Assembly: GCA_021234155.1 (NCBI GenBank)
Contig: JAJEKV010000032.1
Span: forward strand, 13,904,283 to 13,968,282
Origin: Isoetes taiwanensis
Taxonomy: Eukaryota; Streptophyta; Lycopodiopsida; Isoetales; Isoetaceae
Direction of reading: 5' to 3'
DNA: 64,000 nucleotides
The notes under the pieces were generated by a model. That model was not told the DNA's origin and did not search any database. It was given only the letters and a program-made list of their open reading frames with translations. Of this stretch, positions 1,310 to 63,420 are shown piece after piece; positions within the stretch are counted from its first letter, which is position 1, and each line of letters opens with the position of its first letter. The position numbers and the translations under genes were made by a program.

Positions 1310-1430
1310 CGCTGATTAATTCGCCCTCCCGCAATTTCCGCTTCGGTATGCACCACCGATTCTACCACAAAGAAGGTGCCAAAATGTGGCGTCAAAATGC
1401 GCGTTTTTGATACACCACAACGTGCTTTTA
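1310..1430. mobile_element. Terminal remnant of the GGGTAAAAGCA transposon family
   Basis: The sequence ACACCACAACGTGCTTTTAC at 1412-1431 matches the right end of element B (ACACCACAGCGTGCTTTTAC, followed by CC) and follows the family consensus GGGTRAAAGCAYG-N4-GGTGT. The final bases are replaced by the start of a CACTA terminus, so the fragment seems to have been cut by a CACTA insertion. The upstream 100 bases are non-coding and share only a few short words with the B end. Confidence 0.5.
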
Positions 1431-1548
1431 CACTACAAGAGAAGGGGTCAATTAGTGTCATGAAAACATCACCAGAACATTAGAATGTTTTTACTATGAC
1501 ATTATTGGTGACATTTTTATAGAAGTGATGCTATAGGTGCCACAATTT

Positions 1549-25699: not shown

Positions 25700-26190
25700 A
25701 CTACTGAGGGCTCAGTAATTGCAGACGTTTATCTAGAATCTCAAGTATGTATAATGCCAAGTCATGCACAGATGGTGCTCTAAGAAGTTGTGGAAGCGTG
25801 GAATGGAATGCTAAGATCAAAAAATAATTTCGGACTATCTCAAAAGCAGGGCAACTCAGAAGAGTATGGCTTTCATCTTCAATAACCTGTAACTGCAACA
25901 GGCACATAGTCTCACTTCTCGTGGCAATTGCGGCCGCTCCCATCTACCTGTCTCAATCCGTAGCCTGTGGGACCCCATGCGAATTGATGCAATAGCTACA
26001 AGCTTGTTCCTGGATAATGAAGCTTGTTCCCTTGCGAATTGATGCATAAGTAATGGCACTATATGTGGCAATAATGGAACAATAATTGACATTGATTCGA
26101 CAATATAGATGGCACAATAAATGACATTGATAAACTGGATCTGCAACCTCGAATGCAAAGATTTGAGATTTTTTCTGAATGTAGTGGTCA
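25700..26190 (-). pseudogene. LINE 3'-region fragment (post-RT Cys/His domain)
   Basis: Minus-strand frames read SIRMGSHRLRIETGRWERPQ then LPREVRLCACC (26000-25900), and EDESHTLLSCPAFEIVR (25870-25810). The pattern R.GSH.L.IE.GR....PRE..C..C ... EDE.H.L..CP is the usual C-terminal region of plant LINE reverse-transcriptase proteins. The same pattern appears at 52540-53260. A frame change separates the two pieces. The upstream edge abuts the RING gene on the opposite strand. Confidence 0.7.
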
Positions 26191-26760
26191 TGACACTCCT
26201 TTAAATCCTGCACTTCCAATGCTTCCTGAGGCCGAAGAAGAGGGTGATAAAGGTTGTCTATTTTGTGGACGGTGTTTGAAATGGGAGGGTAAAATGTTGC
26301 CAGTTGTGATAGCAGAATGCAGTCACCGATATCACATTGCATGTCTATCACACCATTTGAGGTAAACATTATCATCTCTAACCTCGTTTACAGACTCTAT
26401 TGATACTGGATTTGTTTTACAGACACTCTAGAACATGTTGCAGGCCCAGTTGTGCCCACATTATGTCTGAGACATGGCTTTTGGTTTTTGGTGTTCGAGT
26501 GGTACCACAAGAACCAATAGACACAAGTAAGTACCTTAACTAATGTTTGCTGATGTTGTCACAGGTATACTGACTTAGTGTTTGCAGAATTGCAGAAATT
26601 TGAGACCAAGGATATCCAACAGTTATCCACGCCTCTATCAGTTATGAGACTGCAAGATACCTCCCGGGTGCACCTAGAATTCACCCCATTTGATATTTCA
26701 AAGTCAATCCAGCTGTTGACAACGTGGATAATCCAAAACGAAATTTGGATAGTGAACTGA
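26153..26760 (+). CDS. Small RING-finger protein, three exons
   Basis: Exons 26153-26361, 26423-26526 and 26588-26760 join in frame across GT-AG introns (donors GAG/GTAAAC and CAA/GTAAGT; acceptors TTTTACAG and GTTTGCAG) to give 161 residues. The N-terminal half holds a RING-like pattern: CLFC, then 17 residues, ECSHRYHIAC, then after the first splice CCRPSC. That fits a C-C-C-H-H-C-C-C zinc ligand order, although the last pair is C-x3-C where C-x2-C is usual. RING proteins are mostly E3 ubiquitin ligases; no other domain was seen. The start is the first ATG in the open frame; the frame stays open to about 26100, so an upstream exon is possible. The clean splicing suggests a real or recently captured gene. 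Confidence 0.6.
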
Positions 26761-26930
26761 ATGCAGTCATGTCAAGTAACACAAGGCCCCCAAAAAATAA
26801 CTATTATTAGTCTGTTACAATGGTTTTTGCATAAAACCGCTATAATAAATTAATGTTACTTTGTGGGTTAATATGTTGAATAACCACGATCATTTTTTTA
26901 ACATAGTTCGCTATCATAGTTCTTTATAAT

Positions 26931-29220: not shown

Positions 29221-29227
29221 TCCCTAT

Positions 29228-31430: not shown

Positions 31431-31479
31431 TTTGCAAAAGTTTATGAAAAGGTAAAAGTCTGTTTGAAACAGATTTAAA

Positions 31480-33857: not shown

Positions 33858-33922
33858 CATGGCATGTTGGATAAGTTGTTGGTTCTTTAACCATAAAACT
33901 TGGGTTCAAGTCCTTCTAAGCA
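33858..33922 (+). other. Degenerate tRNA-like segment
   Basis: GGATAAGTTGTTGG resembles a box A and GGTTCAAGTCC at 33902-33912 is a good box B. Acceptor-stem pairing is missing. It is probably a SINE head or tRNA relic within the LTR element. Confidence 0.4.
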
Positions 33923-34074
33923 CAACAATGTGTTGTTACGAAGATGTTATTTATTTTCTTATATATTGAAGGATTGATTTGCATTGATTTTGAAATGTAC
34001 GAGCTAGATTTTTCATCTTGCATTTCAAATTACTTCAAAACAAACATAATTTGAAAACAAATGTGAAAAAAAAA

Positions 34075-35432
34075 ATGGTTTTAAAATATTCCTTCTATGA
34101 TCATGATGATCCTCACAAGATGAGAGCAAAAACTCATGTAAAGCAATTCGAGGCCCTAAGCATGTTAAATGGGCATAACGAAGACTCTATAAGGGTGTTT
34201 GATCTTCCCAACAACCTTGCAGGGTGTAGCCGCTAACCTGATGTACTCAAATATTGACTCTATGTCTACATGGAATGAAATGAAAAGTTATTTTATTTCT
34301 ATGTTCCAAGAAGGATTGTCTTATAGAGAATGTAGAAAAATATTGGATACAATGAAAATTGAGGAAGGAGAACATCCTCGAGAGTTTGCTTTGAGAATTC
34401 AAGATATAGTTGCAGAAATGCAACCCAGACCGCATGAAGAAGATATAATTGAATGGTATATTAATGGATTTCCATTTGAAGTATGCCAAAGGTTACAAAT
34501 AGAAGATCCTCCTACATTAGACCAAGCAGTTCAGAGAGCTGTTGTGGTAAAAAGAGTTCTAGGTTCTAGGAAGCATGAAGAACTAGAACTAGAGAGCTCT
34601 GTGCATAGTAAGGCACAAGAGATGAACGAAATGGAGGAATATAGACTTGAGGAAAGTTGTGATAAGAAACATAGTACATGTGACTATGTAAATTCACGTG
34701 GAAGTTGCAAATCTATGAGCAATGAGGTTGATCCATACAAAATAGGAAATGTCGAAATGATTCTTGATGATTTTATAAAAACCCAGGAGCTTCAAAATGG
34801 CAATATAAATGAAGTAGAATTCTTCAAAGTGGAAACTGAGAAGATATTTGATTTCTATGATATCAAATATATGTTTGATCGCCCATTGTATGAAAACAAG
34901 AAGGTGGAAATTTGGATTGAGAAAGAAACTTGCACTCAAGCAATTGAAAGGCACGTTACAGGTGATGAAAATTTGGCAACACATAGTGCTACCTATGATA
35001 TTGTGAAAATAGCTCCAATCCTTAAAGAATTCCAAAGAGAAAATCTTATGGGCAAATGGGGAAGCGTGCCCATCATCAATAGATTATTTTGTGAAAAAGT
35101 GGTCTCCAAAGTTAATGCCGCTACAGGACCTCATATTGAAGAACTCCGAATCATAGAGAATGCAAACAAGTATGACATGGAGAATGTTAAAGATATGATT
35201 TATCTTGAGAAATCCAAGTTCAAGGCAAATCCATTCATATGGACAAATTGTTATGAACAGGGCCATATAGACCAACAAGGAAACTTTATAGATAATTTCT
35301 TGACAAAGAAAAATATGCTTATTCATTATGGCACCTTGCTTCAACAAGAACCAAAACCCAAAGTAAAAATCAAACATTCCATTGAGAAGAGTGATGAGAA
35401 CCCAGGTTCTCATCAAAAGTTTGGGGGAAATA
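34075..35432 (+). pseudogene. Gag protein of the LTR element (frameshifted)
   Basis: The frame from about 34075 (DHDDPHKMRAKTHVKQFEAL ... VFDLPNNLAG) continues after a one-base shift at about 34225 with NIDSMSTWNEMKSYFISMFQ, then YRECRKILDTMKIEEGEHPR, EFALRIQDIV, and IIEWYINGFPFEVCQRLQI. The W..F...F.... ...L......GE....F..R........ ...I..F..G pattern is that of retrotransposon gag (capsid) domains. The C-terminal two thirds is acidic and unassigned. No zinc knuckle was seen. The open frame runs through the polypurine tract into the 3' LTR. Confidence 0.65.
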
Positions 35433-35811
35433 TGTTAGGGGTTTTCCACCCTTTGAATGCATTAGCACTATGGCTATTAAATTTGAAGACACTATCATTA
35501 TTGGCATGGGTCCACATCACATTTTACATGACTAAAGGGGGGATCATGTATGGAGTGAGAGAGAGATCATTAGTTGAAGACCATGATCATGTGGGTGTTC
35601 TTGTTGTATCTTGTCAATTTCAAAAAGAAGTGCAGTTTGAGTATCTTTTGTGATGTTCTTGTAATGTAAGTGTGGATGTAAGTGTGCTTTTGATTATCTT
35701 AATTCTGGGTGAGAGGCAGAGTTAAGTGTCTTAGTTTGTGTGCTGATGAAGGCCTTCGGGCCAAGTCCAAGGTCTTGAATTCTGTCTTGAAAGGGAGATT
35801 TTCCCTTAACA
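35433..35811 (+). repeat. 3' LTR of the gag-only element
   Basis: 379 bases, same ends as the 5' LTR, with an internal deletion of about 175 bases near 35518. It is followed directly by TTTAG. Confidence 0.9.
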
Positions 35812-36135
35812 TTTAGGAATTTAAAATAATTAAAAAAGTTAAAAACCAATATATGCAGTTTATAGGCATCAATATGAGTAGCCGTGTAATATGTGATATT
35901 ATGCATTGATGTAATAGTGGGAACGCCAATAAGCATGTAAGATATGATAATATGCATTGATGCAGTGGGAACACAAACTATTACACCCAACACTCTAAAT
36001 TAAATTCCCCCTAAACCCCCTTTGGTTTGGTGCATATTCACACGGGGGGTCTTCGCCATGTGCAGGTGATGATTGCGCTGATGGTGGCAGGACTAATTAA
36101 ACTTGATCTTCATTTATTGGGTTCTCTGGTACAGT
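35812..36135. repeat. Second copy of the inverted-MITE block, right part
   Basis: Matches 27798-28122, including the MITE end CATATTCACACGGGGGGTC and 80 bases beyond it (CTTCGCCATGTGCAGGTGAT ...). The two copies diverge after GGTACAGT. Confidence 0.85.
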
Positions 36136-36280: not shown

Positions 36281-36408
36281 ATAAAAGCTTTTGACACTGA
36301 TATGCTCTACAATAATGTTTTATTCACAATCCTTTAGTAGCGAAATAAAATTGAATCAAATAAAAGCTTTAGACATTGATATGCTCTATAATAATGTTTT
36401 ATTCACAA
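36281..36408. repeat. Tandem ~75-bp duplication next to element A
   Basis: AATAAAAGCTTTTGACACTG then ATATGCTCTACAATAATG is repeated as AATAAAAGCTTTAGACATTG then ATATGCTCTATAATAATG. Element A begins immediately after the second unit. Confidence 0.7.
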
Positions 36409-36667
36409 ATCGGGTAAAAGCATGAAAGGGTGTCTATAAATGTAGCCCTTTTTGTACATATACATATGTACCGAATGCACATTTTTGGAATAACTGTCAT
36501 TCATGACCCGCTAGTAACTGCCATGATTAATGGCTATCCACTACTCTGAACCCGCAATTATCGGATTTTGAAATTCTTTCCCAAATTCTTTCTTGGTTTG
36601 CCTCTCGTTCACTATCCCGCCCCTGCCTTCTCTGCTTGAATTCCGATCACGAATTCTTCATCTAGCT

Positions 36668-37176
36668 ATGGCCCCAAAACGCCCCCAGATGAGTGCTTGC
36701 TCATCACCACAGCCCAAGCAAGAAGCCAGTGCTTCCGGCAGTGGAATTTTACCTCCAAGGAGTTTACGTTTGGGTTCTGAGGTGATCCAAGCCAAAGACC
36801 TCCGTGATAAACATGCAGAGGCCCAGAGGCCCACATACCCAACCTAGAGATGGTTATGAACGAGGTATGGGGTGAAGCTCCAAAAAACAGACGAGGATTC
36901 AAGGAAGGGAGAATCCAGAACGCATGGAAAGATGATTTTTTTAAATATTATGAATTGGTTTATGGCAAGAAACAGGTTACACACCATTATATTTCTACCT
37001 ATTTTGCCAGAGCATTTGCTCTTCACTTGAAGGGACGGCTTGTTGATTGGATGGACGTGGCTAGGACCGCCAAAGATCTTGCCAAAACCCTCATTTCAGA
37101 CGTTATAGAGGACCCTACAACAGGTAAATCCTCAACTATCAAACAAGACATCGTGATTGCGGCCAGAGAATATTAG
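36668..37176 (+). pseudogene. Element A, first plus-strand exon(s), unknown domain
   Basis: An ATG at 36668 opens MAPKRPQMSACSSPQPKQEA, a basic, Ser-rich start. After a frame change at about 36845 the frame reads VMNEVWGEAPKNRRGFKEGR, WKDDFFKYYELVYGKKQVTH, YFARAFALHLKGRLVDWMDV, and ends at 37176. I recognise no family. It is the first coding block after the left terminus and probably the N-terminus of the accessory protein whose later exons hold the Ulp1-like and HAD domains. Confidence 0.45.
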
Positions 37177-37474
37177 AGCCCGGGTTATTCTAGATCGGAT
37201 GTTGACACAATAAAGCGATTACTTAAGCATGGGTTGGAGGAGAAAACTAACCTATTGAATGAAGTAGAAGCTTTGGAAGAAAAAGGAGGGATGCATTGAA
37301 GGTCATCACCGGATTGAGGGTAGAAAGGATATGCTATCCAGAAGATCCGCAGCAGATCTGCCGAAAAATAGATGAGACAAAACAGAATTTGACAAATTGT
37401 CCCGGGATCCCGGCTGGAAATCAAGTTATCTTGAGTGTTGAAGTACAAGTTGGAAGACTTGGTTATGAGTAGAC

Positions 37475-37900
37475 ATGATAAAGAGCAAGCACTCTTCTAA
37501 GCTAGAAATTGGTTTGCAGGAAGCAACTAAAAAGAAATTGAAAGGCATGAAATCTCAATTGAACAAGCAAAGGAAAAACTTAATTGCATTGAATTGGTTC
37601 AAAGAAAGGCATTCACAGATTTTGGATTTCATGGGGAGAGCGGGACCTATTGTTCTCAAGACCGAGGCCCCCCCAGAGGGAGCTACTTCTATAGAGCAGT
37701 TCATCACATTAGGTTCATGTACTGTTGTGGCCAAGGCTTTGGCAAAACGGGTTTGTTGTTTACTAGCTCCATGCAGAGAGATGCTTATTGCCTCTTCGCT
37801 TGTGTTATCTGGTCCATGAAAGATTGCAATTGCATCGGGATGGGGCATTGAATTCAGCTTGGTTTCCCCTGCTTTGTGAAAGGTATGCATTGCTCTCAAC
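37475..37900 (+). pseudogene. Element A, coiled-coil-like exon, unknown
   Basis: The frame reads EIGLQEATKKKLKGMKSQLN, KQRKNLIALNWFKERHSQIL, then APPEGATSIEQFITLGSCTV. The preceding 37200-37470 stretch (LLKHGLEEKTNLLNEVEALE) is also Lys/Glu/Leu-rich in another frame, so a coiled coil broken by shifts is likely. Function unknown. Confidence 0.4.
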
Positions 37901-38239
37901 TAATTTAAACTTATATTTCTCTTAATTCATATTTGTTATTGTAATCTGCATAGTTCTACATGTATGGCTTTCAGTGCATTGCTATTCCTTGTACATGTAT
38001 AACTTTTAGTGTACATCTCAGAAGGAGGTACATAGGCATATATTTGCTTGTTTATTGATGCTTTTATTTTTGAGCTTGGACCTAGCTTGTATCAGGTTGT
38101 ACATGTCTCTAATGGAGTCTACATCTGCAAATAGATGTACATGCATTTGTCTTTAGAGTGCATCTGTAGATGGATTCATAAGTATGTGCATTTTTTACAT
38201 ATATGTGCTTTTTTTGGGCATAGATCTACATTCCCTAAC

Positions 38240-38400
38240 TGGATACCTGGGTACATCTGGGTACATCTGGGTACATTGAGGTACCTCTATGTACATTGAG
38301 AAACATGTACATGTACATTTGGCTATAGTTAAATGTAGTTACGTACATTTGGTACATTTTATGTACATGAAATGTACATGCTTGGCAGAATGTACCGGAT
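38240..38400. repeat. GTACAT motif array, left
   Basis: About ten copies of GTACAT, many as the palindrome ATGTACAT, within 160 bases (GGGTACATCTGGGTACATCT and following). The array lies about 1.8 kb inside the left end of element A, in a probable intron. A matching array lies about 1.4-1.8 kb inside the right end. Confidence 0.7.
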
Positions 38401-38460
38401 ATTTCTCATTAGTTCCGTTTTTCATGTTCTTTTATGTCTATTGAAATTTAGATCATTTGT

Positions 38461-39266
38461 TTGTTTTTGATGAGGTCGTTCCTATCCCGAGCGGCTTTAA
38501 TGGCTGATGTTCTTGAGCCATCTGCATCGACTCTCTTTACAGATTTTACTGAGCATAATAAGCAGACCGAATCTGTAGACCCTCAATCTTCCAGCTCCAG
38601 ATCACCAATGACATTTACAGTGCCAGTAATAGAACCATCTGCAACAGTGCCTCCTCGAACATGGCAAAGTGAAGTTGAGGAAATTGAGAGGATGGTACTT
38701 GAGAAAGCTAAAGCAGTTGCAGGTGCAGAGCCTTCAATGATCGCGCAATGAAACTCTTTCATCACCAAGTGCTAAATTAGTAATTGGAGAAGCTAAGAAA
38801 GATTCAGCTTCTGTCTCAGCATCATCTGCAGGTCCCAGTTCTGGACCTGTTATAGAAGAAGCTACAAAGGACACAGATCCAGATTTTATCCCAGGAGATA
38901 CCAGGAAAGAGGAAGTTGAGTTGGTAGTTGAGTCCACTCCAAAGAGGAGGCAAAAGAATGCTGGTGATGGCACTACAAGAGGAAAAAAACAGGCAAAATC
39001 TCCAGCAACAAAAAAATGTCCTCCGAAAAGAAAATCTCCAGGCAAAAAAGTGCCACCACCACCTAGAAAGAGGTATGTCCAAGATGAACTAATTTTGTTA
39101 AACATCTCAGATTTATGATAATTAACCACATTTTTTTTGTACATAGGACACGATCACAGGCCGTGAAGGAAGCTGATCCTGATCCTTCTGAGTCGGAACC
39201 GGAAGAGGAAGAGGATCTACAAGCAAATATTGATGTGATAACAAATAAGGTGCAGCAATCCACGTA
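38461..39266 (+). pseudogene. Element A, disordered acidic/basic linker exons
   Basis: Frames read DVLEPSASTLFTDFTEHNKQ, TWQSEVEEIERMVLEKAKAV, then after a one-base shift near 38750 SASVSASSAGPSSGPVIEEA, and a basic stretch TPKRRQKNAGDGTTRGKKQA, KCPPKRKSPGKKVPPPPRKR that ends at a donor. The next exon begins TRSQAVKEADPDPSESEPEE. This looks like a nuclear, disordered linker with localisation signals. Element B has a shorter acidic linker in the same place, just before its HAD domain. Confidence 0.45.
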
Positions 39267-39364
39267 AGATCTTTGAAGCAGGTGATGAATTTACAAGGTG
39301 AGTAATATACAATTGATTACAATAGATATATTCTTTTGCTAATGCTGTTGTTTCCTTGTACAGT

Positions 39365-40293
39365 TTAGTGAACCGACTGAAAAGGTTGGTTCCAATCACT
39401 CCTTATAGGGACTGTCCTCCTAAGCCTGCACCCTCTATCTTTCAAAGTGATGTCGACGAGTTCTGCTGGAAGCTGGACTTGACCTCTAAGATGGTAGATG
39501 TCTATGGGAGGTAGGCTAGCATTTCAACATATTTATGTTATTTCATTCCCTAAGTCACTCATCTTATGTATTAATATGTATTCTGGATTTGTGTGCAGGT
39601 ACCTTTGTAGCAGTCTTCCATCTGATTGGAAACACAAGTTTCAAGAACAGGGGGGGCAGATGCACAGAACACTAACATAAAGGAAGGGCTGGATGGCATT
39701 TTGATTGCAAGATGCCAATACATATTTGTTCCAATTCTGCAAGGCCCAAATGTGGCATTGGCAATACTTGTGCTTGCTGGTCCAGTGAAAAGCTCTTTTC
39801 CATCTATAGCTAGCCCAAGTATCTGAGATCCTCTCTCTGTCAAAGGCTATGTACCCGATGCTAAAGTGGTCCAGAAGTAAGTATGAGTTTCTGTTTTGTT
39901 TTTATGATTTGATTATTCTCATATTGCAATTTCTTATGCTTGATTTATTCTCACATTGCAATTTTGCAGGTTTCATAAGCTTGTGATCAATAACATGATG
40001 CTCGGATCCAACAGCTTAAACCATGGTAGAAAGAACTTTGATGCTCCTGTGTTCTGTCCTAAAATGCCAGAAACTAGTACCAGCAACCCTTACATGTACA
40101 TTGTGGCTTACATGCACAAATTCATAGATGCCGTGGTTGATGCACAGCCAAGCATAGTCCTCTAATACTTGTGCACCATGCAGATGACACCCAGTTGGTT
40201 CACTCATGCCTATGCCAAGTCATGGAGGGATCATCTAATGGAGGCATTAATTGTAGAAGGCGAGATGAATATACAAGCAGTTGTTCCTACACA
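39365..40293 (+). pseudogene. Element A, Ulp1-like domain lacking catalytic residues
   Basis: Exons read LVNRLKRLVPITPYRDCPPK, VDEFCWKLDLTSKMVDVYGR (donor), YLCSSLPSDWKHKF, then after a shift at the G7 run near 39651 ARCQYIFVPILQGPNVALAI, and KFHKLVINNMMLGSNSLNHG, YMYIVAYMHKFIDAVV. Compared with the Ulp1 of element B (KCQYMFAPTCDGHHWTCFLI; SCGPTVCSFMHKFMRG), the CQY.F.P and MHKF words align, but the active-site His, Gln and Cys have no counterpart. Ulp1/C48 enzymes cleave SUMO-like modifiers; this copy would be inactive even if translated. The last exon ends VVPTQ/G at a donor that joins to the HAD exon. Confidence 0.45.
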
Positions 40294-40508
40294 GGGTAGA
40301 TAGTCCCTTTGACTTGTTTGTAAATTACAGTTTTGTATGAGCCATGCTCCGAGCTTCTTTGTACTCAATAAGTAATGAAAAAATTAATTTATTTGTCTCA
40401 CTTACACCTGTGCAAATAACAATCGTGTAATTATCAATGTGTTTTCTCAATTGTGTGATCTGAAATGTAATTATAAATTGTGAATCTCAAGTATTTTCTT
40501 GCTGACAG

Positions 40509-41163
40509 GTGAATCATCTAATTCAGGGAGAAAGCTCATTATCTTTGACTTAAATTCTGTGTTGGGCAAGAGTGTGCACAAGAATGAAAATATTAACTCA
40601 AGATACCAACAGATCCAGAAAGATGAGCTTCAATTTAATATAGGAAACAGGTTTTTTTTACTGCAGGCCAGGGTTAGCATCACTGTTAGCATTTGTAAGA
40701 GAAGGGTTTGATGTTGCCATCTGGTCTTCACTCACTTCTAAAAATCTTCAACCAATTGTGGAATATTTGTGATGCTTTTTCCATAAAGCTGAAGTTTGTT
40801 TACAGCCAGGAGCAGTGTTGGACTCTGCCACACAAACACCCTACTGAACCTCAAAAGGGGTTGTTTGTGAAACCATTAGCTGTGGTATGGAAAGAGTACC
40901 CAGAGTACTATGGACATACAGTTCTGATCGACGACGAAAGATACAAATCCACTTTGAATCCTGTAGGAAGCTACATATGTCCTTTCTCTTGGACACCGAT
41001 ATTAGCTGGTGACAGATTTCTTGTCATGGAGCTCATTCCATGGCTTAATGGATTCAAAATGGCCGAAGATGGTATAGTTTATGTGAAAGAGCATCCAATG
41101 ACTAATGCAGCAGATGGCATATCGAGGCGGGTGGAACAGATTTTTGCCGGCAAACTATGGTAG
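40509..41163 (+). pseudogene. Element A, FCP1/NIF-type HAD phosphatase-like domain
   Basis: After an acceptor (GCTGACAG) the frame reads GRKLIIFDLNSVLGKSVHKN (motif I as D-x-N), GLASLLAFVREGFDVAIWSS (motif II, WSS), then a one-base shift near 40770, DAFSIKLKFVYSQEQCW, KPLAVVWKEYPEYYGHTVLI and DDERYKSTLNPVGSY (motif III, IDD). It ends PWLNGFKMAEDGIVYVKEHP. The order and spacing match plant NLI-interacting-factor-like phosphatases of the FCP1/SCP fold. The second catalytic Asp of the canonical DxDx(T/V) motif is Asn, as in some plant members, so activity is doubtful. The frameshift marks a pseudogene. Confidence 0.7.
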
Positions 41164-41415
41164 CAACTTGGGGACTCTGCTTTGCCTAAATTTAGTCAAT
41201 ATCTGAACAAGGAATGGAGAAATCGCCATCATGTTATTGGCCTCTCGACCGCCCATTGTTGGTACAGACTTTGGTGATGTACAAATTCAAATGTTATGAA
41301 TATATGTATCAAAGTTTTTGTTCATTGCACTTGAGTACTCTGTTTTTACTGTCTTTCTTATTGGTACAATTATGAGTGTGTATACATAATTAAGTGATCT
41401 TCATTTGCTTTGTAG

Positions 41416-41843
41416 ATGAATGGACTGAAACACAAAAGACTATTAAGAAACTAAGAGATAGAGTTCTGCTGCACCCAGAGGTAATACAAACCAACACAAG
41501 CTGCAAGTACATAGGGTTGGGGACCGATTATCGCCTCTATACTGATGTTCCTGAATTTTGGGAAAAGGTTGAGCAAATTGAAAATTATGAGGAACGAGCA
41601 ACCATGAAAGGTATATTGGCAGCAAATCACTTGTTGCACAACCCTTGGGGGAAGGCACGTGTCCTGGAAGATGCAGGCCATGTAGGATGGAAAGGTTTGC
41701 CAGTGGCACGTGCTATAGAAACCGCATGGACTACTGCTTTAGAGGATATCTCTTCAGCCTCTCGGCGGGCTGGAAGACATGATGCAATAGTCATAAGATA
41801 TCAGGCTCCTACTGACATTTTGAAGCTTGGTCATGAATTATGA
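41416..41843 (+). CDS. Element A, unassigned C-terminal exon
   Basis: After a possible acceptor (TTTGTAG) the frame reads DEWTETQKTIKKLRDRVLLH, YIGLGTDYRLYTDVPEFWEK, GILAANHLLHNPWGKARVLE, and ends ILKLGHEL. I recognise no family. It lies 250 bases after the HAD block on the same strand and could be the C-terminal part of that protein or a separate small gene. No counterpart was seen in element B, where a Ulp1 domain follows the HAD block. Confidence 0.4.
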
Positions 41844-43989
41844 GCCATGCTCATTTTCGGGTGTGTTGTATTTATGTCCACAATATAAATATATCAACCA
41901 TTTGTACATGAAAACCTGTCCATTTCTTATCTTTGCCATGACTGAAACCATTTTTAATGTTTATGCAATTCAACTTTCTTGTGTTCAATTCTAATCAACT
42001 TACACTTAACAAATTTTTATAATATTTCTGGAATGTACAACATATGTACATGTACATTGATGTACATAATGCACTTCTGAAGTAGTCCAGTTCTTCAGTT
42101 CTTATAACAAAGTATTACAATATTTCTGGAAAGTACTACAGATCTGACTTAGTCCATGTCATCTACAATTGCTGGAAGTTGTGATAACAATGTCTCATGG
42201 ACTTCATCTGGCAAGTGAAATGCTGTGCTTGCCCCCTTCAGCTTGTGTTTTACTTTCTTGAATGGGATTCGAACCCCAATCACAGATTCTGCAGGTACCA
42301 AAACATTCTTAGTAGGAAGCAGTTTATACTTATTGTGGCAGCCTGGGATTAGTTCATAATATTGTCCTTCAATGACACTAGTGCCAGCAGAGTATTCATT
42401 TCCATAGTCATCAATTGAATCTTCTTCCAATGCATGCTTTTCCCTGGTGCACATGAGAACATAGTATGAAACACCTTCCACATTGTCTGGTGCTGCAAAA
42501 GACACAAATACATCCAAAAAGCACTACAAGTGTCATCTAAACCAGCCTCGTCCTCTGCATACAAAACATCCACATCATTTTCAGCTTCAACACGAGAGGC
42601 AATATGATCTGTGGGCTCCAAACTTTTTAGAGACCATTCTCCACAATGTTTAATGTTCTCACAATTCAACCAATTGAAGTTAATGCAAGCATCACAAAAG
42701 CGAGAGTGGTGTGATAGCAACTTTGTTGGATCTCTTTGGGTTTATAGTTGACACGTAATGTATCTGGCGAGTACCAGGTAAAGTCTTGCAATTGAATGCT
42801 TGCCGCCTCTGTTCACATCTGCTTTTCCAACCTCCCAAAACACCCTTTCACAATCCGATTCCTTGGCCCTTAAAACCGCACACAATTTGTTTACACTGAC
42901 ATCAGCGGCATGCCATTTTGTTTTTCTCGCCGCTCTCAAGCCACAACTTTGCTATACCAGCCTCGCCATCATGTGTGCCTTTCCCATGGCCAGATCCAAA
43001 GAAATTCCATATCACTCGAATTTTATTTTCAACATGGTATCTACAGATTCCATACCATGCCCGTGCAGATTTGAATTGAGATGCACAACCATCCGACCAC
43101 ACATAATGAAGGTTTATGTGTCCACCTCCATTATTCTTAAGCCACCCCAAATGTAATTTAAAACCATATTGCACAAAATGAGTGTCGTGCTTCCTGTCAT
43201 CTGAAACATAGAAATGCACTGTTTTTTTAAGCAGGATTCCAATGCTCGGATTGCACTTCTGTCCCTGGTTTCAATGTGTAGTTCTCTGCAAAGTCAACAA
43301 CAGACAACACACTATTATCCGGGAGTTTCTCAACACATCTTTTAAACTGTTTGCTCTGCCAGTGTGCTGTAAAGTTATGATCTGTAAACTTAGCAAGCTG
43401 ATTTTTCATGTTCTTTAACAAAACAGATGCTTTGTCATTCTGATCAACTAATCTAAGCCTTCTGGATGTACCTTTTTTGGATGGCTCATTGACATATGCA
43501 TATACTTGCCAGTCCACATTCTGAATTCCATCTTCCTCGTTTGGACAGATGTCTAATTTCTTCACTCCACATTCATCACATTCGCCTTTGATGCATTTTA
43601 GTTTATGCCATTCATCCGTCACTCGCAAACTGTTGACCTCCACAAGATACTAACATTATCAAAAGTCTTCTTGTTTGCTTGACATACTCCATTGTTTTGC
43701 TGGGATGCACAGACACTGCAGCAGCAAGTGCAATTAACATGTAGGGATCTCCTCATATCATTGAAGGCCTTTCTGTACAGATCTGCTTGCTCATGTTTGA
43801 CACAACAACATGTGTTTCTCTCCTTCAATTTCCTTATGCAATCAGGTTTCAGATACTCGAACTGTCGAAGGCGAACTTTGGTATCAGGATTCTGATATAC
43901 AAACTGTTGATAAAGCTCAGACTGCAGTAACAAAAGCATTAAAGACCATGTTAGCAAAATGATGTCGGCAACCAGATGCCAAAAGAGTA

Positions 43990-44350
43990 TTGAACTATAC
44001 TATTGTACAATTAATGTATGTTCTATGTACATAAAATGTCCATCCAACAGTTCCACTGATCTGTTACTGTACATCTAATGTACATCAATACATCTAATGT
44101 ACAGCCAACAGTTCCACTGATCTGTTACTGTACATCCAATGTACATCCAATGTACATCTAATTAATGTTCCAATATTAGTACATCACATTAATGTTACAA
44201 TATTAGTACAACTAATGTACATATGTCTGATTTGTTTGGCTTCATTACCTGAAAGTACACTAAAATGTAAAATGATGTAATTTTGATATTCAAGTACATG
44301 TAAATGCAGCTGCATGGACATGTAAGTGTTAATGGATGTACATCTAAAAA
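43990..44350. repeat. GTACAT motif array, right (in transposase intron)
   Basis: About a dozen copies of GTACAT(C/A), often spaced as TAATGTACATC, lie in the intron (43922-44850) of the element A transposase. They mirror the left array at 38240-38400 in distance from the element end. GTACAT is much rarer elsewhere in the window. Confidence 0.7.
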
Positions 44351-44387
44351 GTACCTAATAGCACATCACTGCAAGATTTCTGCTACT

Positions 44388-44709
44388 GGGTGAAAGCATG
44401 ATACGGTGTACCACTTTTGGAACCCTCAAAATTACCTTCACTGGGTACTTTTAAAACTGGTACTTTCTGTTTTTTCTTCCCATTAAAATCAATTCAAAAC
44501 CTTTGAATTGAAGGTCAATAACATGTCAATATATGGTATTAGAGGATAACAATATTATAAGAGACTAAAATTAATGAATCAACTTTCAAACTTATTGTTT
44601 ATTGAGACATTTATGCAAGTTCATAGTACCTAGTGTTGGGTACCTTTTTGGGTAGTTTTGCACTCCCTAAAAAGAACTTTAGATGGTACACCCTAGCATG
44701 CTTTCACCC
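44388..44709. mobile_element. Non-autonomous element C (322 bp), same family as A
   Basis: The left end GGGTGAAAGCATGATACGG.. and the right end (read inward) GGGTGAAAGCATGCTAGGG.. agree at 23 of 25 bases. A 4-bp target duplication TACT flanks it at 44384-44387 and 44710-44713. It has no coding sequence and lies in the intron of the element A transposase. It independently confirms the terminus and the 4-bp duplication length for this family. Confidence 0.85.
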
Positions 44710-45778
44710 TACTATGTAAACAATGTATAAATGTAAACAATGTAAAATGCAATACATTTCATGAAAACCATGTGTATTCATTAACAGGTCACTCGGAACA
44801 GAACTAGAATGTACAGAAGAAAGTGAATTGATTCAATTACAAGAGCAAACCTGTGAGATATCAAGGTATTGTATTGCTTGTGTTCTCCTCTTCATGACAT
44901 CTCTAACCTTTGGTAAAACTTTGGTATTGTCAAGCCAAAATTCACGAACCTGACATTTGATTGAATCATCGATTCTATTTGATCTTGGCATCCTTCCTGC
45001 CAAAGCCCATACATTTGCTCCACTTAATGACATTATCTTCCTTCTTGCTGCAGCTTTGGATAAATTTCTTGGCTGTATCTTTAGCAATTTTGAAGAAACA
45101 TTCTTGTTTATATCTCATTTTTTTCCAACAATCATTGATAACAGTGAATGTTTTGCAGCCAATTTATCTTTGCTATTAGCAGACTTTACTTCTTGAAGCC
45201 CATCTTTCAAGTTTCTGATCATTGATTTCATAACAATAACTTCGAAGGATTTCCAATTATGAGGTTCGAAAACAGAAAAAGCCCGTCATCAAGCAACAAA
45301 CGATCACAAAAACTAATCTTTGATTCGGGCCGAAGCGTTTGCCGAATCGAGGATGCAATCCACCGATTGCCAACACGCCGCTTTATTTGTTTTGTGGCAT
45401 AACACCGGCCAATGTCGGCATACTTGGCGCTTAGAACCATCACTTCCATTGGAATTCTCACCCTCCATGAACATTGAAATTGATTTGTATTTCTTGTAGA
45501 TTCAATTGGCATGTGTTTGCTACGGAATTCGAATTGGTGTTCGATCTCGTGAAAGGGGGAATTTCTAAAGGGAGGGACGGATCCATTCGAATTGGTTCGG
45601 TGGTTAACCAAGAATTTTGGGGGGAATGTCAGGGATGATCTTGCAATCATTGCATATCTGACACAAAATGACAAACCATAGTATCTTGATGTACATCTAA
45701 AATGTACCCCAAAAAAGCACAAATTCGTCCTTCAATTCAGTACGATGTACGTACACCCTTTCATGCTTTTACCCAATC

Positions 45779-47255: not shown

Positions 47256-47873
47256 TTCTTTTTTTTTTTTTTTTTTTTTTTTGAGGGTAAGAATTTTTTT
47301 GATTAATATAAAAATGGTACACGACCTTTTTGTGGGCTCCACAATAGGCCAGATAGGAAGTGTAATAAGCACATGGTCACCAGATAGAAAAAATTAATTC
47401 AGAAAAACAAGACAGATATCAGCCTAAACGCCAATATATGATGATGCCTCTGTACTCTGTCAACGCGCCCTCAATCCTTCCATATAGTAACAGGAAAATA
47501 TGTATCTCTCCACTCTTCCCATTCAGTACTAGAGGGCATGGCCCTCTTCCATCCAGTGCAGGTACTATGGAAAGTCTGTTGCATTAGTAGAGCCCTACTA
47601 TAAATGATACCTCCAAACCATGAAGCACACTCCCGAAAGATATGTCTAGAAGCACAGATTTTTTAGCCTGGAGACCCTACGCAAGAAATGCATTCTCGAA
47701 ATTCCCCTGTCTTCTCCTATCTCTAGTACTATTGAAGGTGTAATCCCTTTCCATGAGCATATCTCAGCCACCCTGAAGCACCACCCGAAGTATTTCAGCA
47801 GAGATAAACCTGTGTACTAAGGAGAACTGATCTCCATCTTCCCATAGAAAGAATACTATGAGTGGCGCCCACT
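47256..47873 (-). mobile_element. LINE 3' end with poly(A), cut by an LTR
   Basis: A T run of more than 25 bases at 47256-47282 is a poly(A) tail on the minus strand. Read on that strand, a frame contains LCASRHIFRECASWFGGIIY and SRALLMQQTF, resembling the end of plant LINE reverse-transcriptase proteins, followed by a 3' UTR ending AAAAAAATTCTTACCCTC. That ending matches the retroposon at 1549-3006. The 5' side stops where a truncated inverted LTR begins at 47874. Confidence 0.5.
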
Positions 47874-48340
47874 TGATACAAACGGTTTACCTGTCTGCAA
47901 AACTTTCAAACACTGTTATTTAAAACAACCTGGAATCTCCAGAATAAGATCTCTCGGCACAACTTATCCACCCAACCGGGCTCTGATTTGCAAACACGGC
48001 AAGTTCTGAGCTCAAATTCCTCCCAATTCTGAGAGTCTGCTAACCACCTGGAAAGCCTCTCTGGGATTCTCTGGAATTCTCTAGAGCAAAGGAGGCACTT
48101 AAATTCAACCACAAATTACTAGAGGATTTTCAGCAGTCAAACTTCTATATCACGCTAGACACTTTCTGCCCCTTCAATTCAGCAGATCCGGTTTCATTTA
48201 TACTACTCTAAAAGGTGTTAGTTGATCTAATTATGGTTTTTTCCTTTACCTTTTTCTAAATCCGTCTACCTTTTTCTAGAGTCCAGCCAGTTACGATGGC
48301 TCAGGAACTCATTCCGGCCTTTTCTGCAAAAAGGCAGTTT
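47874..48340 (-). repeat. Truncated inverted LTR
   Basis: This is the reverse complement of the 3' portion of the LTR at 48363-49114 (it starts TGATACAAACGGTTTACC). It ends within the LTR at AAAAGGCAGTTTGTTCC and switches to a short plus-oriented LTR word (CCTGCGGCAGATGG) before the complete LTR begins. This looks like a template switch or self-integration product. The frame encoded on both orientations (LCSREFQRIPERLSRWLADS) recurs in all three LTR copies and has no known function. Confidence 0.75.
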
Positions 48341-48362
48341 GTTCCTGCGGCAGATGGAGAAT

Positions 48363-49114: not shown

Positions 49115-49200
49115 AGTGGTATCAGAGCTGTTGTATCCTAAGATCCTGTGAAATGGCCCAGAACAAATTTAATCTTCCTGTAGACTAGTATAATCACGCT

Positions 49201-56436: not shown

Positions 56437-57251
56437 AGATAAATGCTACTGCAACTGCAAGCCATCACGAAGAGATTTCCAGTGCATCTGTTTTAGGATG
56501 GGAAATTAATTCCCTTGAGACTCATTCTGCACGAGATCCTTCACCAGACAAAAGTTTTACTGCTGAACATGAGCCGCAGGCGGATGCAGGAGATGAAGTT
56601 GACAAAGAAACCCCAGATCCTGAACAAGATGCAGTCTGCTCATCAAGTCCAATACAACCTCAACCAAGAAAAACCAAGAGGTTAACTGAAATTCTCCTTG
56701 TTCTGGATTTTAATAAGGTTTTGGGCAAGTTTTATGACTTGAAAGAGAGGATTCCTGCATCGGCTGAGCCAGAAGTGACCTTCCAAAAATTGAATCTTCA
56801 AAAGGCAGCAATTTCCAGGCCTGGATTACAGGAGTTCTTAGAATGGTGTTTTTCAAAATTTGAGATTGCATTGTGGTCCAGCATGGCTAAGAGTAATGTT
56901 GACTTGTTGGTGAGAAAGTTGCTGCAGGAATATAATGGCAGATTTCTTTTTATTTGGAATCAGGATGACTGCACCAACACAAAATTAAAAGTGCTTAATA
57001 AGCCAATTTTCCTTAAGGATCTGTCCAAAGTGTACCAGAAATACTGGAAATACCAAGTGAAAAACACATTGTCGATAGATGACAGCAGATATAAGGGTTC
57101 TGCTAACCAGCCAAATACCATGATATATCCAAATAGTTTTGCTCCGGACAGGTTGAATTCCAATTTCCTTTTGGAGCAACTCAAACCATGGCTGGAAAGA
57201 CTTCTGGCTGCAGAAAGTGTGCCTGCTTATGTGAAGGAAAATCAAATGTGA
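56437..57251 (+). CDS. Element B, FCP1/NIF-type HAD phosphatase-like protein (3' exon)
   Basis: Open from the acceptor at 56436 to a TGA at 57249. An acidic linker (EPQADAGDEVDKETPDPEQD) and basic PQPRKTKR precede the HAD domain: LLVLDFNKVLGK (motif I, D-x-N), RPGLQEFLEWCFSKFEIALW then SSMAKSNVD (motif II, WSS), FIWNQDDCT, KPIFLKDLSKVYQKYWKYQV, LSIDDSRYKGSANQP (motif III, IDD), and a C-terminus PWLERLLAAESVPAYVKENQ. The pattern follows plant NLI-interacting-factor phosphatases. As in element A, the second catalytic Asp is Asn. No in-frame stop interrupts the 270 residues. The N-terminus lies in an upstream exon not identified. Confidence 0.7.
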
Positions 57252-57429: not shown

Positions 57430-58179
57430 GAGACGATAGAGCTTCGGCAGTCCCTGTCTATCTAAAGCCACATACACATTTGGAAGTGGTGCTGAGTGGA
57501 ACTGAAACTGTCGTGATTAGCTCCACCGACATCAAAATTTTGGAAGCTGAACGTAGTGGTTCAATGATCAATTGATCCTCCTCTTCTCAAGGTGATACTT
57601 TCATCTAATTTGTGATCATCAGGATTGTGCCATCATATGCATATGTTTGCAGATACATAGAATACTACTTGATGCTCCAAGGAATGAGTCATCCCTTTCA
57701 TTTCTTTGACCCTCTTTTTCACTCGATATTGTCCAAGGACACAAATAGTTACAAAACAATAAGGAAACATGTGAATCTGGATAAGTGCCAGTACATGTTT
57801 GCGCCTACTTGTGATGGACATCACTGGACCTGCTTTTTGATCGTAAGCTGCGCATGTCTCGCACAGAGATATAAACCAGGGATATATCACTTTGATAGCA
57901 TGGGCTTGCATGGCAGAAGTAGACATATTGAGAGGTTAGTGCTTGCTCATTGCATTTTGCTGTTGTCACACAATGACAACAAACTTTGAATGCAGGTTCT
58001 TGGAATTGCTTGGACATAATAATTTCAGCTTTACAACCTCAGATGTTGTAAAAGATTCCGGAACGCCTCTTCAAACCGATGGCCATTCTTGTGGCCCTAC
58101 CGTATGTTCGTTTATGCACAAATTTATGAGGGGGTACTTGAAAGGAGTGAATATATTGTTGCCTGATCTAGTAAGATAA
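57430..58179 (+). CDS. Element B, Ulp1-like (C48) cysteine protease
   Basis: Exons 57623-57934 and 57996-58179 join in frame (donor GAG/GTTAGT, acceptor GAATGCAG). All active-site positions are present: His in DGHHWTCFLIV, Asp in GIYHFDSMG, Gln in TPLQTDGHSCGPTVC, and the nucleophile Cys in the same word. The substrate-binding side reads YVCRYIEYYL and CQYMFAP. A probable N-terminal exon (57430-57600, VVISSTDIKILEAERSGSMI) holds a TGA near 57572. Ulp1 proteases process or remove SUMO-type modifiers in the nucleus. The gene follows the HAD gene on the same strand. Plant MULE and CACTA elements also carry Ulp1 domains, but here it travels with a different transposase. Confidence 0.75.
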
Positions 58180-60559
58180 CTCAAATGCAGCTGACAAACC
58201 AAACTCTGTTATTAACAAAGTGTGGTTAACTACAGGTTGTGGACATTTCAGACCAGGATCTAGTTGATGTTAGAGTGTTTTAATTTTAAGATTAGAAGCA
58301 ACAAAAGTTGGAACTGAGAGGAATATGTGTATTGGGAAGTATGTAGGTGCATGAGTCACCTCGTACTTTAAAATCACTGTATATCTTGCTTATGTACATA
58401 TTTGTTACTGTAACCTCGGTTCATTTGAATGAAAATTCATATTCAATTATATGTTCTTTGTCACAAACTAAGGAATCAAGTGTTCAAAAGAATTCAGATG
58501 TTCAAAAGAAATCAAGACAAACTCATTTTCACAGCTGAAACACAAAACTTCAGATGAGTTCTGAAAATTACATAATGGTTTTACATTTCATCCTCGACAG
58601 AAAGAACTTCGGGTAAATTCTGTAAAATTTTCTCCTCATCTAAAGGATCCAGCCTATATACAGTCCTGTTTTGACGTTTAATTGGTGGCATGTGAAGTCT
58701 AATTGCACAGATCTGTGTTGTGAATACTATGCCTAAGGCGTCTTTACTGCGAAGATCATAGCTGACGGTTGGTCTTGCACCCTTCTTGTAATACATACTC
58801 TCTATGACACTATCACCAGCGAGGTACCATATTCTATTGAGTTGGAAGTCTTTCTCCACTATCCATTTTGGTTTTGTGCACATCAGAGTCCAAAATTCAG
58901 AACCCTCATCATTTCCTTTCGGAGCAACGACGGCAAAATTATCACCAACTCTAAGTGCCTCTGCTAACATCGTGGGGTTGGAGGAGAATAAAGACCTGCT
59001 AGATTTACGATCCTCAATGTCAGCATGCACATTGGAGGATGGTACAATAACTTGAAGTTTCCAATCATCAACATAGTACTTGTTCACACAACTGTCCCAC
59101 ATGCCATCCAAGCAATAGCTGCAGAAGCATGAAAGTTCCCTCGTGTGCAATTGCAATGGAGATTCAGGATTGAATGCATGTACACAATGGATCTGCCTAG
59201 TGTCCAAAATCCTTTCTGCAACCTATGCTTTCTTTCTATCTATATCCTCCACCTTGACTTCCCAAAAGAACCTTTTTATATTTTTCCTCTTGCTGGTTTC
59301 AGATGTGTTCATCCACTCGGATGTTCCACAAGTAAACATCTCTTCAGCAATTTCTACCACTTCATGAGCATTACCCAATTTTATGCTGTTGTATTTTAAT
59401 TGCAGTTGTCTTAACCATCTCTTTAACTCAGCAGCCTTGCCATCGTGTTCACCTTTCCCGTGGTTAGAACCAAAAAAATTCCACATCATATAGACATCAG
59501 TGTCATTTGTGTACCTAGCCACAAAGTAAAATGGTCTAGAAGCCTTGAATTGAGATGCTACACCATCTGAAAACACATAATGTCTCTTTAGCACCCTTCC
59601 TTTCTGCTCCAGATATTTGTGGTGTTTCATGAAGCAGTGTTGCACGAACAAAGTATCGTGTTCCATATCATCTGATACATAGTAATGTATTTTCTTGATA
59701 ATCTCATCTGCCACTGAGTCCAACTGATATGTTATTTGAACCAAAATGGTAATCTGGTTATTGACCCAGTGTATCGACTGCACTTCCTCTTGTTTCTTGA
59801 ATGTATAGTTCTCTGCAAAATCCACTACCGAAAGACATGCATCTACTGGGAGATTCTCCAGAAGCTCCTTAAATTGTTTTGCCTGCCATTGGTACCTGAA
59901 ATTATGCAGTGGAAAGATTTTTAGACGCTCTTTCAGTTTATCTAGAAGCTCCCTGGGTTCTGTCTCATTGTACTGATGAGTCAATCTCCTACCAGAACTC
60001 GAGATATTGTCTTTTTCATAGTCAATGTACTCCCATTTCACTTTCCTGTTACTGCCACTTTCTTCCATGGGACGGGTCTGAAACTTCTTGATTCCACACA
60101 GCTCACAATCTCCAAGGATGCACGCCTTCTTGTGAAACTCTTGTAATTCACTCTTTAAACACAATATAGATCTCCACAGGCTTCCTGTACTTGCAATTTT
60201 ATGCTGGTATGCCATGCATTGACCAAGTTCATGTGATCTACATACATCGCAGGTGCAAGTGCAATTCTTCGGATGTTTGGTTCTCATCCCATTGAGTCCA
60301 TACAATAGCATTTGCATCCTCACATGCTGAATGCAACAGCAACTACTGAAGTCCTTCAATTTCACAACAAACCAGGGTTTTAGCTTCTCAAAAGCTCGAA
60401 GACGAATCTTAATTTGTGGATGTTGGTCCTTGAACCTCTTGAACAATAGCATCTGAATGAAATGAACATTAAACTGTTAGGATATATATACCACACCAAA
60501 CCATGCACTATACCATGTCTCACACTCATCATATTCACCAGAACGAGCACCTTAGTGCT

Positions 60560-61514: not shown

Positions 61515-61943
61515 ATGGCTACGGGGTTGTTCAGAGATCCTTACGGCCTACCTAAAGTGAGCGAGGAGGGCCTTCGGCATGCTTTAACCAGGGCTCGTGA
61601 CCAATCTCTGAAGGTGGATATGCCTAAATCCACCTTCTTTGCTCAGTTCGAAGCCACCCTAAACCCATACAACAGACTGGATGATGTGCCTTCAATGGCT
61701 ATTTTTGGGGTCGGATTGACAGGAAGTGAGCTCTCAGACAAGGTCCATGACCTTATGTTACATGCTGCTGCAAAGACAGGTATAACATGGGTTATTCGGC
61801 ACTTGCTCGCTCTGAGTTGGTGGCAACAGCGGGAATTACTGGCAGGGTTGCGTTCTTACCACGAGGGGATGCAAGAAGCACTAACAAACCTGATCCTATG
61901 CAATTCTGGGATGACTGCAGAAAGCTTAGATGCTTTAGTGTAG
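61515..61943 (+). CDS. Unassigned 142-residue protein in the transposase intron
   Basis: ATG at 61515 (context GGCAATGGCT) opens MATGLFRDPYGLPKVSEEGL, FFAQFEATLNPYNRLDDVPS, GVGLTGSELSDKVHDLMLHA, and WWQQRELLAGLRSYHEGMQE, ending at a TAG at 61941. In-frame sequence continues after the stop for about 100 bases without other stops except one. I recognise no family. It is opposite in strand to the transposase whose intron holds it. Element A has unassigned plus-strand exons near its left end that could be distant counterparts, but I see no clear similarity. Confidence 0.4.
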   Translation: MATGLFRDPYGLPKVSEEGLRHALTRARDQSLKVDMPKSTFFAQFEATLNPYNRLDDVPSMAIFGVGLTGSELSDKVHDLMLHAAAKTGITWVIRHLLALSWWQQRELLAGLRSYHEGMQEALTNLILCNSGMTAESLDALV

Positions 61944-63420
61944 AAAACAGTAATTTTGGATGCACCAGAAGTGGAGCCAGTCATACCAGCATTTCTTGCT
62001 GCTTAGGAAATACATGTAAATTTAGTTCTCGGGTACAGAGCTTTCAATGAAAAGCCAAATTTTGTAGCATATGCTCTTTTTTTTAATATATTATAGACTT
62101 TCCAACAGAGATGTACTTTCATCTGACAAAAATTTGTCTTTATTCAACAAAAATTTGTACCTTTAGGATCAGTTAGTTATCTGTCATTCTCAAATATTTT
62201 TAGACTGTACACACAGACCCAGTAAAGGAATGTAGTACTTGTAACTCAATTCTGTCATGTTCTAATATTCCCAACATTAAATATTATTTATCTGCATTTC
62301 AGAGTCAACTATACACAATTCACATGCTGCATACAGTACACCACAATCACTGTACAACACAATAACCACCACATGCACCACCACACTAAGCACCATAACT
62401 AAGAAACATGAATAACAGAGTTTATAAACTAACCTGTGATTCCTCCAGATAGTGGGCAGCATGTTCTTCTCTTACATATCTCTCCAATCTTCTAGTTCTA
62501 ACATCCTTTGTGTTGGGAGACACTCTGGTGTTCTCAATCCAAAAATTTTGAATCTTTTCTATTTGTTCATCTGAAATTGCATCAAATATTTTAGCCTTCT
62601 TATAAGAAATTCATTTCCCACCATTGTAATCGATCTTTTCCCTCTTTTTCTTTGCCTTTGGCAGGTTTCTTGGGTGAACACCTAATACCTTTCCAAGATC
62701 TCCCTGGCTGATTTTGTCACTTGTTTCAGAATCTGCACGGCGTGGTACAGACATTGCAAGACAGCTATTCTTGGCTGCTAGGCAGTCATTGCTGGTAGAG
62801 AGTTTCACAATCTGCATGGAGTCCCAGAGGCTCCTTATGACGATGCTCTTGGCTTTTAAATCTTTTAATTCTTCACCTTTAAATTTTTCCAACGTTTTAT
62901 CCCTCAAAAACTCAAGTAAAATTTCTTTCTTCATGCTATCCTCAATTCTTTTGGTCTGTTTATGGAAAGACATTAGCAAATTAAGGATAATACTGCGTTT
63001 ACTGCATGCACTTCTAATTCTGCAAGCTCCAATTTTTCTTCTCTTCTTCTTTTTCTCATGCGTCTTTTCTTCAACATTTCTTCTTCCTTGGTTCTTCTTC
63101 GTTTTCTCCTGTCTGAAGTGCCAGTTTGTGGACAGATTACCTCGTTGACATCCATATCCACAATGCATTGGAGCTTGTAGCAGGGAGGGAGCCAAAGAAC
63201 AGGACGGAGGCAAAGAACAAGAATTTTTGAAAGAATAGGAATTTGAATTTTAGTTTTGAAATTAGAATTTCCCCCACAAATTGGGACTCCATTCTTAAAT
63301 AACGGCAGTTGAACGGTGCCATAATTATACTTTCATACCACAAAAGTGGCGGATGCACGACCACATTTTGGGGGGACAGGGAGGACAGCCGAATTGGAAC
63401 ACCACAGCGTGCTTTTACCC

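Follow-up and report, generated by a model that had tools for sequence, protein, structure and literature searches.

The 64,000 nucleotides of Isoetes taiwanensis analysed here (contig JAJEKV010000032.1, positions 13,904,283 to 13,968,282 of the forward strand; hereafter the window) raise the question whether the sequence between two inverted ends at 36412–45774 is a transposon, to which lineage it belongs and whether the HAD-like and Ulp1-like proteins encoded in it have a part in its transposition. A preliminary description, made from the sequence alone, had proposed a DNA transposon with perfect 22-bp ends and AATC on both sides. We confirmed this: the element, called el1 here, is a 9,363-bp DNA transposon with a perfect 22-bp terminal inverted repeat (TIR), GGGTAAAAGCATGAAAGGGTGT, and AATC on each side. 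It belongs to a real and very abundant Sola-like lineage, in which the helper gene is unusual and the transposase has a predicted BAH-like tail. We consider it quite probable that el1 is a decayed copy of this large cut-and-paste lineage (DDD transposase, 4-bp target site duplications, TSDs), with the mechanism and the helper gene proposed below.

Boundaries, copies and target duplications

The boundaries of el1 and its transposase side comprise the following features (ORF, open reading frame).

36408..36411, no strand: left TSD, AATC (TSD check, copy survey)
36412..36433, plus strand: left 22-bp TIR (end-motif scan)
42149..43999, minus strand: transposase exon 2, several broken frames (VVDFAENY in 43227–43649; SDGCASQFK and GKGTHDG in 42902–43270; ORFs, comparison with el2, a second element of the window)
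44388–44709, no strand: nested 322-bp non-autonomous element (miniature inverted-repeat transposable element, MITE) with the same end type and TSD TACT (bounded by two of the five perfect window ends)
44833..45114, minus strand: transposase exon 1 piece (ORFs, comparison with el2)
45753..45774, minus strand: right 22-bp TIR, perfect (end-motif scan)
45775..45778, no strand: right TSD, AATC (TSD check, copy survey)

The termini read GGGTRAAAGC. The window contains five ends with 0 mismatches and one end with 1 mismatch, against an expectation of 0.0 ends at 0 or 1 mismatch (20 simulations). The empty site of the nested element is kept in L001, a full-length relative of el1, where 120 of 120 bases are identical. 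In L003 the empty site is almost identical, and in L002 a 17-base gap adjoins it.

Across the 1.66-Gb host genome, exact matches to GGGTRAAAGCATGNNANGGTGT amounted to 2,584 forward and 2,595 reverse (5,179 in total), and the reversed-motif control gave 0 matches. We compiled a sample of 39 copies, consisting of 31 short pairs (252–342 bp), four pairs about 9 kb apart, two full-length el2-type sisters, el1 and the nested element; the short and the ~9-kb pairs were taken from among the genome matches listed. A 4-bp duplication was exact in 37 of the 39, the exceptions being L005 and L008, which have none, and a 5-bp duplication was found in no copy; L018 was read with one surplus base discounted. 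Among the 37 there were 31 different TSDs, whose first base was A or T in 29 copies and whose last base was A or T in 26. TTAA occurred once (L033) among the 32 TSDs listed. Near-full-length relatives of el1 are L001, L002, L003 and L039, and coding copies are 9.2 to 12.1 kb long with a 22-bp TIR.

The ends, the 4-bp TSDs and the empty site are the trace left by transposase insertion with a 4-bp stagger. Together with the thousands of ends, the short derivatives and the conserved catalytic triad described below, they indicate a real transposon lineage. That el1 might consist of host genes which happen to lie between inverted sequences, or be a solo rearrangement, is refuted by the thousands of ends against a control of zero and by L001–L003, which share the ends of el1 and have each their own TSD; we regard its probability as negligible. 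The sampled copies thus bore out the duplication length given in the preliminary description, and the different length that would have spoken against it did not appear among them.

Some further copies and repeats were observed. L004 (C22:250006-258941) spans 8,936 bp, has perfect ends of the type common among the short elements and is flanked by the TSD ATGG; its interior is mostly pyrimidine-rich repeat, and no transposase match was found in it. In L036 (C2:46953-56218), three ends on the plus strand are spaced at about 4.6 kb, and 70–144 bp of el1-like sequence (96–100%) follow each of them, perhaps as a tandem array; the last el1-like piece is truncated where this stretch stops, and partner ends were not found in it. 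To the left of el1, at 26931–36135 of the window, lie direct and inverted blocks of 71–664 bp that are 83–99% identical.

The transposase and the better-preserved copy el2

The minus-strand transposase motifs listed in the preliminary description are present in el1, spread over two frames: VVDFAENY stands in one ORF, SDGCASQFK and FFGSGHGKGTHDG in the other. Because the motifs are split over different frames, the transposase gene is broken; both genes of el1, transposase and accessory, are in this state. A better-preserved relative, el2, lies at 56411–63420 of the same window; the preliminary description contained neither el2 nor the nested element of el1. The transposase pieces of el1 and el2 are only 21–49% identical. 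The features of el2 and of the related segments are as follows.

1412..1433, minus strand: el2-type end with 1 mismatch (1291–1431 matches bases 3–144 of sister copy A)
26135..26779, plus strand: el2-family accessory-gene segment, collinear with 1766–2414 of sister copy A (alignment to copy A)
56439..57248, plus strand: NIF/FCP1-like HAD exon, domain from 56682, nucleophile motif DFNKV (Pfam NIF, E 1e-15)
57609..57934, plus strand: Ulp1 protease exon a, with catalytic His and Asp (Pfam C48 after splicing)
57996..58176, plus strand: Ulp1 protease exon b, with Gln and Cys (Pfam C48 after splicing)
58581..60476, minus strand: transposase exon 2 (631 residues, a single TAG in frame); D219 at 59820–59822, D304 at 59565–59567, D345 at 59442–59444 (ORF and alignment)
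58632..58979, minus strand: predicted BAH-like beta-barrel of the C-terminal part of the transposase (structure model)
61515..61943, plus strand: ORF running antisense to the transposase gene within its intron (no Pfam match)
62422..63249, minus strand: region of transposase exon 1, containing a single in-frame stop (ORF)
63399..63420, minus strand: right end GGGTAAAAGCACGCTGTGGTGT, flanked by ATTC (end-motif scan, 0 mismatches)

The three aspartates of exon 2 are never replaced among 41 aligned rows: D219 is present in 40, D304 in all 41 and D345 in 34, the remainder being gaps. The glutamate E343 is kept in only 27 of the rows, with five gaps. In the predicted structure D219, D304 and D345 sit in RNase H order, and the model points to a DDD enzyme with a predicted RNase H-like core. 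For the C-terminal part a BAH-like fold, as found in chromatin readers, is predicted. All 100 transposase candidates that were scored gave a match.

Searches for relatives gave little that carries a name. None of the Pfam transposase families matched the el2 protein or any of the five pieces of the el1 transposase that were compared. By sequence, no transposase match was found in the PDB up to E 10, and no informatively named protein matched the transposase. Foldseek with the whole transposase returned only weak matches (NurA, SPARTA), and no prokaryotic or viral relatives were confirmed among 97 viral-contig and 73 genome-contig pattern matches. Homologues exist in a chiton and in a charophyte alga, in support of the preliminary description. 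Six transposase motif strings had no occurrence in the literature searched, which is only part of all literature. In Klebsormidium nitens, a predicted protein of 1,180 residues (P0046) joins the transposase family to further Pfam domains, which we take to be leucine-rich repeats; it may be a gene-model fusion.

The right end of el2 is perfect, and its left end was not found within the window. Sister copy A (C1048, 9,503 bp, TSD TCTT) matches 26135–26779 and 56411–63420 of the window with order and strand kept, and in A these parts lie 46 bp apart. Since both window parts are nearly contiguous in copy A, el2 is probably a single element whose left part, 26135–26779, was separated from the rest by a 29.6-kb block containing LTR-like (long terminal repeat) sequences and el1; the two parts may instead be separate fragments. 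Sister copy C (C1066) is 12,096 bp long with the TSD TAAT. The transposase of a further copy, B, is 62% identical, and its left end was not found.

Within the block, LTR-like repeats of about 750 bp (48359–49114 and 50776–51516, 96% identical; region 47869–51516) are accompanied by a third copy, inverted and partial, at 47869–48345, and the ORF 49231–49845 between the repeats is presumably gag-like. The last bases of the el2-type end at 1412–1433 run into CACTACAAGAGAAGG, as if interrupted; we assume from its appearance that CACTACAAGAGAAGG is the end of a CACTA element. The transposase intron of el2 contains a long CACCAC-type simple repeat (60570–61350), which is also found in copy A.

The accessory gene and signs of selection

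The accessory gene of el2 lies on the strand opposite to the transposase gene and is convergent with it, with the HAD exon followed by the spliced Ulp1. The HAD exon matches Pfam NIF with 58.2 bits (curated cut-off 21.8). Ulp1 matches C48 with E 9e-8 and 32.6 bits (cut-off 20.7), and H, D, Q and C, the catalytic residues of Ulp1, are all present. Each had one weak PDB sequence match, UBLCP1 for HAD (E 0.00085) and SENP5 for Ulp1 (E 0.023). Copies A and C carry both HAD and Ulp1 inside the inverted ends; two ORFs precede these, one N-terminal and one coiled-coil, the latter with a RING-like motif at its end. In copy A, the copy scanned, this motif reaches no Pfam cut-off (17.1 bits at best, E 0.0068, where the cut-off is 31). 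Copy B gave no HAD or Ulp1 match, so the accessory set may not be universal.

In el1 the accessory gene is represented by pieces on the plus strand.

36811..37176, plus strand: N-terminal piece, by eye like the N-terminal ORF of copies A and C (ORF; no Pfam match)
37469..37819, plus strand: piece with cysteine-rich end (ORF; no Pfam match)
38741..39118, plus strand: basic low-complexity piece (ORF; no Pfam match)
39626..39826, plus strand: Ulp1-like remnant with a QYIFVP stretch, catalytic His not present (shuffle test against el2 Ulp1)
40484..40711, plus strand: HAD piece, nucleophile motif DLNSV (ORF)
40699..41163, plus strand: NIF/FCP1-like HAD piece with IDDERYK (Pfam NIF only E 0.14; against el2 HAD E 2e-14)
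41394..41843, plus strand: C-terminal piece (ORF; no significant Pfam match)

The plus-strand FCP1-like HAD domain claimed for el1 is real, as its match to the HAD domain of el2 shows. The claim of an Ulp1-like protein held in part: when the Ulp1 pieces of el1 were compared with el2 Ulp1, 39626–39826 beat 300 of 300 shuffles, the other three pieces did not, and the four joined did. It is a recognisable but degraded remnant in which the position aligned with the catalytic His is not His, and the Ulp1 with intact residues is that of el2. The order of the domains appears to differ, with the Ulp1 remnant before HAD in el1 and HAD before Ulp1 in el2.

The HAD motif reads DFNKV in el2, DFNGV in copy C and DLNSV in el1, and none of these fits DxDx(T/V), the catalytic motif of FCP1. 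Outside the host genome we found five HAD relatives (P0041–P0045, E 3e-25 to 7e-7), of which P0043 and P0044 have DxN and P0041, P0042 and P0045 have DxA; P0041–P0044 carry Pfam NIF. With DxN in place of DxD and the nucleophile Asp kept, binding of phosphoproteins seems likelier for the HAD domain than full phosphatase activity. No report of a NIF phosphatase in a DNA transposon was found in the literature searched, and 'BAH domain' was not found among the literature matches listed, neither of which proves absence from print.

To examine selection, the ratio of nonsynonymous to synonymous divergence (dN/dS) was calculated by the Nei-Gojobori method in the coding frame between el2 and sister copies A and C. 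For transposase exon 2 it was 0.40 (el2-A) and 0.20 (el2-C), for the HAD domain 0.32 and 0.50 (0.45 for A-C), for Ulp1 0.39 and 0.44 and for transposase exon 1 0.45 and 0.46. Between A and C, the coiled-coil/RING ORF gave 0.42 and the N-terminal ORF 0.61. As controls, shifted frames of the same alignments gave 0.51–2.32 and the el2 intron 0.80–1.04. Across 29 loci (L042–L070), transposase exon 2 ranged from 0.20 to 0.80. Two observations speak against constraint. In el2-C the HAD ORF taken as a whole reaches 0.82, owing to its unconstrained linker (2.67), and the values for exon 1 and for one frame of Ulp1 barely differ from those of the shifted frames. On balance, these comparisons of coding sequence suggest that the transposase, the HAD domain and Ulp1 are maintained by selection. 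With the HAD domain and Ulp1 so maintained, the accessory gene probably functions within the transposon lineage.

The opposite view, that the HAD, Ulp1 and RING-like pieces were picked up passively from the host and contribute nothing to transposition, would fit the finding that the five HAD matches outside the host genome include one from the plant Dovyalis caffra (P0045, the sole named source). The state of Ulp1 in el1, a remnant, the lack of any HAD or Ulp1 match in copy B and the absence of constraint in the HAD linker and in part of the frame controls point the same way. However, el1 and el2 have the HAD domain in common despite the low identity of their transposases, and dN/dS of the HAD domain and Ulp1 stays at 0.32–0.50 over two comparisons. 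We hold passive capture to be quite unlikely.

The ORF inside the el2 transposase intron was matched in 24 of 30 loci (L041–L070, where L041 is el2; many of these loci are truncated, and several matches are partial, two of them no longer than 25 residues). In el2-C its dN/dS was 0.27 in its own frame and about 1.2 when the frame was shifted, and in el2-A there was no selection signal (0.95). The same search gave no match to this ORF for el1, copy B, L001 and L039.

We propose the following mechanism. The transposase from the right-hand gene would bind the GGGTRAAAGCAYG ends, excise the element by its DDD centre and integrate it through strand transfer with a 4-bp stagger, and the BAH-like C-terminal domain might tether the enzyme to chromatin. 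The convergent left-hand gene would encode a helper with RING-like, NIF/HAD and Ulp1 parts, which at transposon chromatin would remove SUMO or a similar modifier and possibly engage phosphoproteins. As a result, silencing might be eased or the transposase stabilised.

Placement and comparison with known systems

Published superfamilies were compared with the lineage through excerpts of the sources cited. The common plant superfamilies named in the preliminary description (hAT, Mutator, CACTA, Tc1, piggyBac) do have other ends or duplications, and the lineage lacks the published mark of each. CACTA elements have CACTA/CACTG ends and a 3-bp TSD, in contrast to the GGGT ends and 4-bp TSD seen here; hAT requires an 8-bp and Mutator a 7–12-bp TSD, whereas not even 5 bp was found in any of the sampled copies; Tc1/Mariner has a TA TSD, in contrast to the varied 4-bp TSDs (PMC10741241). 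piggyBac and Kolobok were ruled out because the TSDs are varied and not TTAA-specific (definition in PMC9587614). Ginger1 has TGTNR ends and TIRs of 40–270 bp, inserts at CCGG or CCGT and carries Ulp1 as a fusion with a Gypsy-like integrase (PMC2836005); it was rejected because the ends of the lineage are GGGTRAAAGC and its target sites are not CCGG/CCGT.

Sola elements are described with a DDD transposase, a 4-bp TSD and very variable ends, with TIRs of 11–1124 bp and sizes of mostly 2–9 kb, some exceeding 15 kb (PMC10741241). The preliminary placement near Sola fits this published description, and the DDD triad, the 4-bp TSD, the TIR length and the element size of the lineage all agree with it, which makes the lineage Sola-like in description. 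Whether the lineage is a true member of the superfamily, as a plant Sola1/2/3 branch, with an acquired accessory gene, is evenly poised. The leaning of the outer TSD positions towards A/T is in line with the AT-rich 4-bp TSDs of Sola2, yet the Sola2 elements described have AWWT (PMC3627910) and the targets here, of 31 kinds in 37 copies, are varied. We see a fair chance, somewhat below even, of a separate eukaryotic DDD superfamily common to plants, charophyte algae and animals and joined to no named superfamily. The transposase without a Pfam, PDB-sequence or informatively named match, the motif strings without a match in the literature searched and the ends or TSD unlike those of CACTA, hAT, Mutator, Tc1/Mariner and Ginger as published (PMC10741241, PMC2836005) would agree with it. 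However, absence from the libraries searched is a weak argument, and DDD with a 4-bp TSD is already the description of Sola.

Our preferred reading of el1 as a decayed copy of a Sola-like lineage with a helper gene has several consequences. Sola elements are seemingly uncommon in flowering plants according to a review (PMC10741241), and here a Sola-like lineage has more than 5,000 exact ends in a 1.66-Gb genome. A helper with HAD and Ulp1 under apparent purifying selection would make the old question of the role of transposon-borne deSUMOylases directly testable. The BAH-like domain on the transposase, if true, would give the element a tangible way to target chromatin.

Among other systems, the NIF/HAD proteins P0041–P0045 are similar to the HAD domain of the element and gave no sign of lying in transposons. 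MuDR has two convergent genes. By analogy, a transposase gene with a convergent helper gene would be common to MuDR/Mutator and the lineage, and Ulp1 occurs in some Mutator elements (PMC2836005); Mutator differs in its long TSDs and its relatively long TIRs (PMC10741241). Ginger1 is alike in its 4-bp TSD and in having Ulp1 within the element, and differs from the GGGT ends, the 22-bp TIR, the varied targets and the separate helper gene of the lineage (PMC2836005).

The BAH-PHD-CPL2 complex pairs a BAH reader with a phosphatase of the C-terminal domain (CTD) type. In Arabidopsis it consists of host proteins (PMC7718874), and its likeness to the BAH-like and HAD set of the element is speculative, with no known link between the two. 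We find it rather unlikely that the lineage is a separate superfamily in which a BAH transposase and a RING-like/HAD/Ulp1 regulator would combine chromatin reading, SUMO removal and CTD-type phosphoregulation to find or reopen silenced chromatin in parallel to this complex. The closest likeness is to Sola (Sola1/2/3), which shares the DDD transposase, the 4-bp TSD, the kilobase scale and the variable ends, whereas the HAD/Ulp1 accessory gene and the predicted BAH-like domain set the lineage apart from Sola as described in the excerpts of PMC10741241 and PMC3627910.

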